Source: a virus
Length of the DNA: 30,477 bases
Strand: one strand, 5' to 3'
IMG/VR virus record: IMGVR_UViG_3300019752_000016
Coordinates: 1 to 30,477 of that record
Positions 5,888 through 25,293 of the stretch are shown piece by piece. Positions within the stretch are counted from its first letter, which is position 1. Each line of letters opens with the position of its first letter. The translations under genes were made by a program, and so were the position numbers. A model generated the notes under the pieces. That model saw only the letters and a list, made by a program, of their open reading frames with translations, was not told where the DNA came from and made no database searches.

Positions 5888-5931
5888 ACTCTAACACCTA
5901 GAATTTATAAATCATTGGCCAAAACTACCAA
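5888..5931 (-). promoter_or_regulatory. module A: leftward motif promoter
   Basis: An 18-bp motif TTGGTAGTTTTGGCCAAT is read leftward from 5931 to 5914. Exactly 20 nt later comes TAGAGT (5893-5888) as a -10-like hexamer, with a weak -35 (AATGAT) overlapping the motif end. It points at the leftward accessory cassette. The mirror copy at 5945-5962 is 13 bp away. The same arrangement recurs at 22752, 25293, 27529 and 28888. Confidence 0.75.
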
Positions 5932-5944
5932 AATTCGCTGATGC

Positions 5945-5988
5945 TTGTAAGTTTTAGCCAATCCTATAAAATACATGAATGGGAATCG
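5945..5988 (+). promoter_or_regulatory. module A: rightward variant motif
   Basis: Variant motif TTGTAAGTTTTAGCCAAT (5945-5962) in the opposite orientation to the leftward copy, 13 bp away. It faces the scaffold gene, but the hexamer 20 nt downstream (GAATCG) is poor; TATAAA at 5965-5970 is the only other -10 candidate. It may act mainly as the second half of a paired binding site rather than as a promoter. Confidence 0.45.
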
Positions 5989-22769: not shown

Positions 22770-22782
22770 CATTTATTTTATT

Positions 22783-23891: not shown

Positions 23892-24131
23892 ATGAACAAC
23901 CAAAACCTACTAGACCGCCTAGAAAGCGCTAAGCGGCGTATAGCTAGCCTAGAAGCTGAGAACAACAAACTGACGAATGATTGTAAGTCTAAGAATGGCA
24001 CCATTGCTAGTCTGAGAGGGCGTAATGGATTTTTAAAGTCTGCATTAGCCAAGCTTGCAAAGGTAACTCCAAACGCCTATGACAAAATAGAAGCATGGCA
24101 AAAGATAGCCAATGATTGCGAACACTTATAA
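23892..24131 (+). CDS. hypothetical coiled-coil protein
   Basis: 79 residues with a leucine/heptad-rich start (QNLLDRLESAKRRIASLEAE) and a Lys/Arg-rich middle. Similar in style to small phage coiled-coil proteins. Last gene of the operon, directly followed by a strong terminator. ATG preceded by GGAGGGTTGAT. Confidence 0.62.
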   Translation: MNNQNLLDRLESAKRRIASLEAENNKLTNDCKSKNGTIASLRGRNGFLKSALAKLAKVTPNAYDKIEAWQKIANDCEHL

Positions 24132-24150
24132 GGGCTTAGGCCCTTTTTTT
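24130..24150 (+). terminator. strong rho-independent terminator
   Basis: AAGGGC (24130-24135), loop TTAG, GCCCTT (24140-24145), with a T tract running to 24150. It ends the operon 22855-24131 and isolates the next 840 bases from rightward read-through. Confidence 0.92.
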
Positions 24151-24154
24151 ACGC

Positions 24155-24262
24155 CTATAAACTCATATTAGCCAATACAATGGCGAAGTGTAATTTATTT
24201 TTATTGGTTATTACTGGCCCATGATCAACATGGCCAATAGTACCTACGTTTACCTTTCTCAT
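24155..24262 (-). CDS. 35-residue EF-Tu P-loop-like peptide
   Basis: ATG at 24262 to TAG at 24155. Residues 4-15 read VNVGTIGHVDHG, identical over twelve residues to the start of the G domain of bacterial EF-Tu. EF-Tu continues KTTLTAAI; here PVITNKN follows, then KLHFAIVLA, which again resembles the EF-Tu continuation. So the nucleotide-binding lysine and threonine of the P-loop are displaced by a 7-residue insertion and the peptide cannot be a GTPase. GGTGAGG lies directly before ATG but is paired in the leader (24263-24380). It has its own leftward promoter. Expression is likely from that context; function is unknown. Confidence 0.7.
   Translation of the reverse strand: MRKVNVGTIGHVDHGPVITNKNKLHFAIVLANMSL
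24216..24235 (-). repeat. hairpin inside the EF-Tu-like peptide gene
   Basis: GGCCATG and CATGGGCC, read leftward, pair with one bulged G around a 5-nt loop. The hairpin lies exactly over codons for GHVDHGP, where the similarity to EF-Tu breaks off. It could stall ribosomes or have shaped the insertion. Confidence 0.45.
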
Positions 24263-24380
24263 GCCTCACCCCATTAAAAATCCCGTAATACAGGGTAAAA
24301 GCCTGCGTGAACGGGGCAACTCACGCAATTTGAGGTGCTACCGACACTGATGTCAGCACCATAGCCTTGGTGAGGTTCTG
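24263..24380 (-). promoter_or_regulatory. structured leader that buries the ribosome binding site
   Basis: Read leftward, the leader forms a closed multi-helix junction. P1 is CCTCACC (24375-24369) with GGTGAGG (24270-24264), the latter being the Shine-Dalgarno of the 35-residue gene. P2 is GGTGCT/AGCACC (24360-24355 with 24339-24334), extended by GACA/TGTC with loop TCAG and a 3-nt bulge. P3 is TGCGTGA/TCACGCA (24327-24321 with 24310-24304) with a 10-nt loop. A weak 3-bp stem CCC/GGG follows. CCCC in the P3 loop can also pair with GGGG next to the Shine-Dalgarno. This is the layout of a translation-controlling RNA switch; the ligand or signal is unknown. The helices are also possible on the other strand. 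Confidence 0.55.
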
Positions 24381-24385
24381 AATTA

Positions 24386-24394
24386 ATTATATCA
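24386..24394 (-). promoter_or_regulatory. extended -10 promoter, leftward
   Basis: TGATATAAT read leftward (24394-24386) is a perfect extended -10 (TGnTATAAT). No clear -35 is present, which extended -10 promoters can do without. Transcription would begin near 24379, just before the first strand of helix P1. Confidence 0.55.
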
Positions 24395-24424
24395 CAGGGG
24401 TTTATCTTGGTGTAAGTATTGGGT

Positions 24425-24430
24425 TATAAT
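24425..24430 (+). promoter_or_regulatory. -10 element for the large RNA
   Basis: TATAAT, a perfect -10 hexamer, with start expected near 24437. The -35 at 17 nt (TTATCT) is poor. It lies back to back with the leftward extended -10 about 35 bp away. If used, it would transcribe 24437 to the terminator at 24961 as one untranslated RNA. Confidence 0.45.
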
Positions 24431-24436
24431 TCAATC

Positions 24437-24961
24437 AACGCTTCCGCCAAGGCGTGACAAAATTTGATCAGGATAAGAGGGTTTTGTTTTGTGTAGGTAA
24501 GGTGTCGAACTTGGCGGTTCTTGATCTTGCCTTATTTGCACAAACCAAAGCCCTTTTTTATTGCCCATCTTTTATCACCCTTCAAAGAAGCTCGGTTCGC
24601 AGCCAGAGCGATTAATTAACTTCTCCAAGCAGTTAGCCTAATCATCCATTGATAGCGCATGAGAGCCGACTGGGTGCGCTTTAGGATTAAGGGAACCAGA
24701 TAAGTCCAACCATTGGACGCCCTAATAACGTGGCGACAGTCACACATAATGCAGCGTAAGTATATTGGTCTATGACCTTGCTAGAATTGCTTTGTGTGGC
24801 GGTAGGGAGCGTTAAATGGTCATCACTGCGCTAAGTGTTAGAAATAGTCCCTGATTAATGTATTGCGTGTGACATTAACAAAAAAGCTCTATAGACCTCT
24901 ATGAGGAATTATTGCTGAATTGCCTTAAGTTGAATTTTACCTGATTCTCTTAAGGCTTTTT
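24437..24961 (+). ncRNA. large structured noncoding RNA candidate (~525 nt)
   Basis: No ORF over 60 codons on either strand. Many complementary segments are seen: 24444-24451/24510-24517 (8 bp perfect); 24475-24493/24539-24557 (18 of 19 positions pair); 24590-24595/24603-24609 (one bulge); 24637-24643/24685-24692 enclosing 24654-24659/24675-24680; 24704-24709/24713-24718; 24739-24745/24867-24873 (7 bp perfect); 24767-24770/24774-24777; 24804-24808/24848-24852; 24896-24899/24903-24906; and the terminal hairpin. It has its own -10 and terminator. Size, phage location and ornate helices resemble GOLLD- or ROOL-like RNAs, but membership is not established. No tRNA is seen next to it. Confidence 0.55.
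24922..24961 (+). terminator. rho-independent terminator of the large RNA
   Basis: GCCTTAAG (24922-24929) and CTTAAGGC (24949-24956) form a perfect 8-bp stem with a 19-nt loop, followed by TTTTT. It ends the noncoding region 33 nt before the next gene, so that gene needs read-through or its own start. Confidence 0.82.
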
Positions 24962-24993
24962 GTGCCTAAAGATATGACATATAAGGAATTAAT

Positions 24994-25293
24994 ATGAGTA
25001 ATAACAACTACTTAGAAGTAACGGCTAAATACTTACACGACAACAGGACACCTAAAGGATCATGGACAAGAAGCCAATTTGAGGTTTTAGGTATTGATTG
25101 GCCACCTGCTAAAGGATGGAAAGAAAAAGTGATCGGCTTAACTATTTCACCTGAGCAACAATCAATTTTCGAGAAAAGATTAAACGCAAGTCAGGCAATG
25201 GGTAAAAAGGAGAAATCCATGAAAATAAGCAAAGCCATTAAAATGCTCAAACTATCTGGATACAAAATAATAAAAAATGGAATAGAGGTGTGA
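24994..25293 (+). CDS. hypothetical phage protein
   Basis: 99 residues. The section GSWTRSQFEVLGIDWPPAKGW resembles a short conserved block found in many small phage early proteins of unknown function. The C-terminal 25 residues are basic and helical (SMKISKAIKMLKLSGYKIIK). ATG preceded by AAGGA. The stop codon overlaps the first base of the distal motif copy of module C. Confidence 0.65.
   Translation: MSNNNYLEVTAKYLHDNRTPKGSWTRSQFEVLGIDWPPAKGWKEKVIGLTISPEQQSIFEKRLNASQAMGKKEKSMKISKAIKMLKLSGYKIIKNGIEV

Follow-up and report, generated by a model that had tools for sequence, protein, structure and literature searches.

A modular family of large structured RNAs in Vibrio and Pseudoalteromonas phages, best read as an unrelated analogue of GOLLD and ROOL

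GOLLD and ROOL are large ornate phage RNAs that form RNA cages and for which no function is known; GOLLD assembles into an RNA-only 14-mer nanocage. A loop pseudoknot is found in the leader RNAs of IncI-alpha and IncB plasmids, in which a UUGGCG loop has a CGCCAA partner. GOLLD is phage-borne, is composed of conserved and variable halves, sometimes harbors a tRNA in its linker, and is of unknown function; its 3′ region is conserved in every member (PMC12286853). The J6/8-L8 pairing of ROOL covaries and turned out to join separate molecules (PMC12286853). The Vibrio phage ICP1 produces an ~800-nt non-coding RNA near its lysis genes, which is the most abundant ICP1 transcript (PMC7567579).

The window, i.e., the whole 30,477-nt stretch of DNA analysed here (IMG/VR record IMGVR_UViG_3300019752_000016), belongs to a marine P22-like podophage with a terminase, a P22-type portal, a scaffold, a coat protein, a P-like helicase loader, and an Erf annealing protein. 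Its plus strand harbors a putative large structured non-coding RNA at 24437-24961. The proposal of a large structured phage RNA is supported by covariation and by the gene-free places at which its relatives lie, and the existence of a structured non-coding RNA class is well supported. The original prediction left the choice between a divergent GOLLD or ROOL and a new class; the comparisons favor the latter, while the divergent-member half of the proposal finds no match with either model at E ≤ 10. The family is thus new as far as tested, although large ornate phage RNAs as a kind are already known.

The family shares with GOLLD its nature as a large phage non-coding RNA with one more variable half, with tRNAs at times in the linker and often nearby. 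Phage location, large size, and a linker tRNA are all found among the relatives, although the window RNA itself has no tRNA. In contrast to GOLLD, which is often longer than 800 nt, members span ~450-700 nt and share a 5′ domain while swapping their 3′ bodies. Their hosts are Vibrio and Pseudoalteromonas, and the GOLLD model RF02032 matched none of 13 records at E ≤ 10. The family resembles ROOL in size, in phage location near tRNAs, and in its multiple pseudoknots, and J6/8-L8 is a precedent for the K/K′ pairing described below. However, the ROOL model RF03087 likewise matched none of the 13 records at E ≤ 10, a search that is weak alone, as no positive control rang, and that agrees with the Rfam scans. 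These scans of the window and its relatives with the 4,227 families of Rfam release 15 gave nothing above cut-off except tRNA, HEARO and OLE included, so that all four models proposed for checking were run and no family matched. Matches of the window to MIR5998, STnc50, and other families fell below the cut-off and were taken as chance. The plasmid leaders share the loop pseudoknot and the very bases of the window's version, but the family does not conserve these bases and no replication initiator follows. The ICP1 RNA also lies in a large gene-free gap of a Vibrio phage; it was rejected as a member, the best match of the 5′ model being 14 bits at the terminator ending the gap. That gap (L149:3098-4108) and its abundant ~800-nt RNA represent a separate, unclassified large phage RNA. 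Literature searches, with subscription papers and preprints outside their scope, found no description of the family in Vibrio phages.

The 5′ end of the RNA is placed by a -10 element, TATAAT at 24425-24430, with a probable start site at ~24437. This element, already recognized in the original prediction, precedes the 5′ domain at a similar distance in almost every relative. The strong terminator proposed upstream is real (24130-24150, AAGGGC-TTAG-GCCCTT followed by TTTTT); it was returned by the terminator scan, ends the upstream gene, isolates the RNA unit, and is conserved (24130-24145 plus the T tract) in the contig of the closest relative (L003). At the 3′ end, a terminator-like hairpin, GCCUUAAG ... 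CUUAAGGC UUUUU, occupies 24922-24961, and the next gene begins at 24994. The hairpin and its T5 tract are present as described, but its 8-bp stem carries a 24-nt loop and it is absent from the output of the consensus terminator scan, making a terminator plausible rather than clean. The absence of a long ORF holds, the longest being 53 aa; a protein-coding reading was rejected, as this frame crosses a hairpin with indels among relatives. A tRNA search of the window RNA returned none.

Several neighboring elements are worth recording. The interval 24160-24400 is not empty and holds a divergent minus-strand TATAAT (24391-24386), conserved in the relatives L002 and L087. Behind it lies a small minus-strand reading frame (24152-24259, starting MRKVNVGTIGHVDHG) that resembles by eye the N-terminal P-loop of EF-Tu and is missing in L002. 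On the same strand, 24120-24198 gives a weak match to the Salmonella small RNA STnc50 (25.5 bits, E 0.08, below cut-off), with which it shares CUUCGCCAU. A dispersed intergenic repeat, ATTTTGGTAGTTTTGGCCAAT, occurs at 22780, 25323, 27526, 27558, and 28916 and inverted at 5904-5962, as well as in L003 and L087; it likely serves this group of phages as an operator or promoter.

The plus strand of 24437-24961 folds with -164 kcal/mol (z -3.8; none of 100 shuffles as good); the minus strand folds ordinarily (z -1.3). Nearly the whole energy signal sits in the 157-nt 5′ domain (24437-24593), which alone reaches z -6.8 and contains 9 G-U pairs, while the 3′ body (24594-24961) has z -1.1, an energy not above that of shuffles. 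Thus, the ten or more helices originally seen by eye are, within the body, at chance level by energy.

The 5′ domain, found family-wide, comprises an outer helix, a long hairpin, and a pseudoknot. The outer helix P1 pairs GCUUC (24440-24444) with GAAGC (24587-24591), the latter lying downstream of the U tract; the 5′ strand is invariant in the three close relatives, and the counterpart in Vibrio phages varies compensatorily. The K segment CCGCCAAG (24444-24451) is complementary to K′, CUUGGCGG (24510-24517), in the loop of the long hairpin P3 (24475-24558); both are assigned by comparison of K/K′ pairs and a permutation test, and the complementarity is present in the window, L002, and L087. 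Between K and P3, GUGACAAAA (24454-24462) pairs with UUUUAUCAC (24570-24578), and this helix changes on both sides, from AAAA/UUUU in the window to UUUA/UAAA in relatives. The 3′ side of P3 closes in the U tract (24554-24559). Its stem is mostly replaced in L002 and L087 with pairing kept, and several stem pairs differ on both sides across the three phages. The region 24455-24577 is only 64% identical between the window and L002, yet has the same fold. Finally, GUGGCGGUAGGGAGCGUU (24796-24813) may pair with 24437-24449 in competition with K/K′, as in the minimum free energy folds of the window and L002; this pairing is not seen in L087.

The closest relative, a single contig (L002/L003/L008), has the RNA in the position that it occupies in the window, and the contig L087 comes from a phage with a 78% identical coat protein. 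BLAST of the window RNA against INPHARED and plasmids gave no match; the bridge to the Vibrio members was a covariance model, R1, built from L002 and L087. With R1, a match of 24.8 bits (E 3e-4) emerged in Vibrio phage 1.003.O, where it falls in a gap of 690 nt free of genes, and BLAST with the 1.003.O sequence returned 48 records, each from a phage of Vibrio or Pseudoalteromonas. Adding searches with the L116 and L121 RNAs, the family totals at least ~59 INPHARED records, many of them near-identical isolates, and it occurs in at least 17 IMG/VR contigs. The hosts include V. lentus, V. breoganii, V. cyclitrophicus, V. alginolyticus, V. natriegens, V. parahaemolyticus, and Pseudoalteromonas, among others, and the phages are of several kinds, P22-like and others that differ in genome size and gene context. 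In nearly all annotated records, the match places are unannotated intergenic gaps that contain no gene. Relatives of the window's Erf protein yielded no new RNA, a search of plasmids with the L116 RNA found none, and the DNA of the L127 type-I body (the commonest 3′ body, see below) had no match in 369 Gammaproteobacteria genomes, a search run without a positive control.

The reverse search used R3, a 5′ domain model built from Vibrio phages alone, without the window, L002, or L087. R3 matches the window at the correct place (24448-24586, 33 bits, E 4e-4) and scores 40.6 bits with L008 and 39.4 bits with L087, E values reaching down to 1e-5. It also found a further, previously unused P22-like contig (G014/L150), from which a complementary pair of its own, GTCGATT/AATCGAC, and the motif GCCTTTTTTATTGCC can be read. 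An E value of ~1e-4 is partly generic, because near-perfect long hairpins score on either strand with R1 and R3, minus-strand matches reaching E 0.003. Beyond E values, membership is carried by position, the CCTTTTTTTATGCCTATC motif, and K/K′. The window has the outer helix and long hairpin with a covariance-model match, as well as the complementary pair CCGCCAAG/CTTGGCGG; it lacks the type-I 3′ body, which is not universal in the family.

Members share the order -10, P1, K, P3 with K′ in its loop, U tract, linker, and 3′ body. K and P1 are placed differently relative to each other in the window group and in the Vibrio phages. The sequences of K and K′ differ in almost every phage but are complementary in each, e.g., TGAGACC/GGTCTCA, GTCGAAG/CTTCGAC, GTGGAAG/CTTCCAC, GTGAGATG/CATCTCAC, and TTTGGCGA/TCGCCAAA. 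Most single pairs are only modestly better than shuffles, and the strength lies in the set. A permutation test was chosen over a column-wise test because the subgroups are offset by one base in the alignment. Across 26 sequences, K and K′ have a mean of 6.6 matching bases versus 4.9 with swapped partners, and none of 100,000 partner swaps reached the observed total of 172 (maximum 157), the true significance being lower as the 26 include related sequences. A search for the spaced K/K′ pattern in viral contigs gave, besides true members, mostly coding or chance matches.

Covariation in homologues, one of the checks originally proposed, is strong among the relatives, both in the 5′ domain and in the most frequent type of 3′ body. 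In the 5′ domain of 10 Vibrio phages, 17 of 30 pairs are changed on both sides and 94.6% of cells are paired, values matched by none of 500 shuffles; sliding the partners by one column lowers pairing to ~55%. Family-wide, the P3 stem has double-sided changes in 14 of 21 pairs, with 98% paired. Just upstream of the -10, eight records (L025, L111, L112, L117, L120, L121, L141, and L142) carry an inverted repeat, CCCCACTTTGCATTTGTGTGGAGTGGG, which stands in place of a recognizable -35 before the RNA in otherwise different Vibrio phages and suggests control by a phage regulator.

The 3′ bodies are exchangeable. The commonest, type I, is carried with many 5′ domains. It has double-sided changes in 12 of 15 pairs and 98% of cells paired (0 of 500 shuffles), figures that are somewhat flattered, since the 15 pairs were selected for being paired and variable in that very alignment; pair selection does not explain the size of the effect, and sliding the partners drops pairing to 28-46%. 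Other bodies accompany the family 5′ domain in L112, L117, and L120 (type II) and in L114, L121, and L087, and L111 has a further alternative body. L116 and L117 share ~91% of the 5′ domain but have different bodies, and L087 combines the same 5′ domain with another stem again and a different body. The exchange of bodies is thus general within the family.

The 3′ body of the window (24594-24961) is of a type known only from this phage and L002. The type-I body model, R2, finds nothing there, and exact-pattern scans with pieces of this body returned one close relative only; three genome matches to an 18-mer were taken as chance. Resemblance of GUGGCGACAGUCAC to GGAGCGACAACUC suggests that 24730-24743 may be a counterpart of the type-I NNN-GCGACA-NNN hairpin. 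With a single, nearly identical relative, the window body as a structured RNA is unproven by covariation. Over 24578-24993, only 3 of 416 sites distinguish the window from its closest relative, with no difference from L002 in 24701-24993, versus 36 of 300 sites in the adjacent gene from 24994, 30 of which are third codon positions. Such a contrast indicates strong constraint, barring a recombination tract whose end coincides with the start of the gene.

The linker, which runs from the U tract to the 3′ body, can harbor tRNAs on the same strand as the RNA. Two complete tRNAs, Ser-GCU and Arg-UCU, are present in L126 and L132, and phage Seahorse has three (Trp, Arg, and Gly) between a 5′ domain and a body of type I. 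The linker of L115, L120, and many contigs contains a degenerate tRNA or a GUGUC...GACAC hairpin. Two V. cyclitrophicus phages carry an HNH nuclease gene directly after the RNA (L112:1936-2475 and L117:1816-2355), an arrangement that is not general in the family.

The main rival explanation, which we consider unlikely, is a leader or attenuator in which the long hairpin and U tract form a terminator, K/K′ competes with it, and the switch controls read-through into the body and the next gene. A U tract does follow the hairpin in nearly all members; in the window and L002, the next gene begins 33 nt past the 3′ hairpin with no obvious promoter of its own, and the long-range pairing of 24796-24813 in their predicted folds would compete with K/K′. 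However, the U tract is partly paired within the stem, and Pseudoalteromonas phage HS5 keeps the hairpin and K/K′ without any U tract. P1 joins the 5′ end to sequence beyond the U tract and covaries; therefore, selection acts on an RNA whose transcription continues beyond it. The 3′ bodies themselves covary strongly. In addition, the downstream genes are unrelated between phages (e.g., methylase, HNH nuclease, phosphoesterase, and tailspike), so no single gene is controlled. The pairing of P1 across the U tract also speaks against a small RNA of ~130 nt that consists of the 5′ domain, ends at the U tract, and is followed by unrelated sequence. This reading would account for the concentration of the energy signal in the 5′ domain and for a hairpin followed by a U tract, but not for type-I bodies that are conserved, covarying, and carried with many 5′ domains, or for the near invariance of 24578-24993; it is improbable.

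Still less probable is a DNA element, such as a replication origin or a packaging or recombination site, whose inverted repeats mimic RNA hairpins. The location upstream of replication genes in the window, the recombination of modules between phages, and the scoring of hairpins on the minus strand would fit such an element, whereas the strand-specific fold with G-U pairs, the dedicated -10, the covarying pseudoknot, the tRNAs embedded on the same strand, and a gene context that is not always replicative outside the window argue for an RNA. Equally remote is a very divergent GOLLD, invisible to the Rfam model: the two resemble each other in their range of sizes, their location in phages, their division into a conserved and a variable half, and the tRNA in the linker (PMC12286853), but RF02032 is without a match in the 13 records, and swapped 3′ bodies are at odds with the universally conserved 3′ region of GOLLD (PMC12286853).

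The explanation that probably holds is a stand-alone, large, modular non-coding RNA family without an Rfam 15 model that works in trans like GOLLD and ROOL, of which it would be an unrelated, modular analogue. The architecture is conserved, covarying, and modular, with its own -10 element. An outer helix closes the long hairpin of the 5′ domain, K is complementary to the loop segment K′ with covariation across phages, and the linker connects this domain to any of several interchangeable 3′ bodies. In the proposed scheme, the RNA would be made during infection and persist as a structural RNA. Since the loop-linker pair of ROOL is intermolecular, K/K′ may hold monomers together. By this analogy, K/K′ pairing within or between molecules could build a compact, perhaps homo-oligomeric particle, with the linker, with or without a tRNA, as its cargo or variable surface. 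Instead of serving as the leader of a single downstream gene, the RNA would exert its effect on the infected cell in trans. Both oligomerization and function are drawn from analogy with the known RNA cages.

The replacement of paired segments with pairing kept, together with the exchange of 3′ modules, is unusual and suggests a specificity element. If K/K′ holds monomers together, its wholesale exchange would keep the RNAs of different phages from mixing. A bolder, rather doubtful possibility is that the family represents an independent lineage of RNA-only phage particles, with an exchanged K/K′ self-specificity code, swappable 3′ modules, and a linker for tRNA cargo. The presence of tRNAs in the linker without a detectable relation to GOLLD suggests that tRNA carriage may be convergent in such RNAs. 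Member phages, dozens of them from Vibrio, are cultured and sequenced, making function, expression, and structure testable in phage-host pairs. The family looks like an independent counterpart of GOLLD and ROOL.
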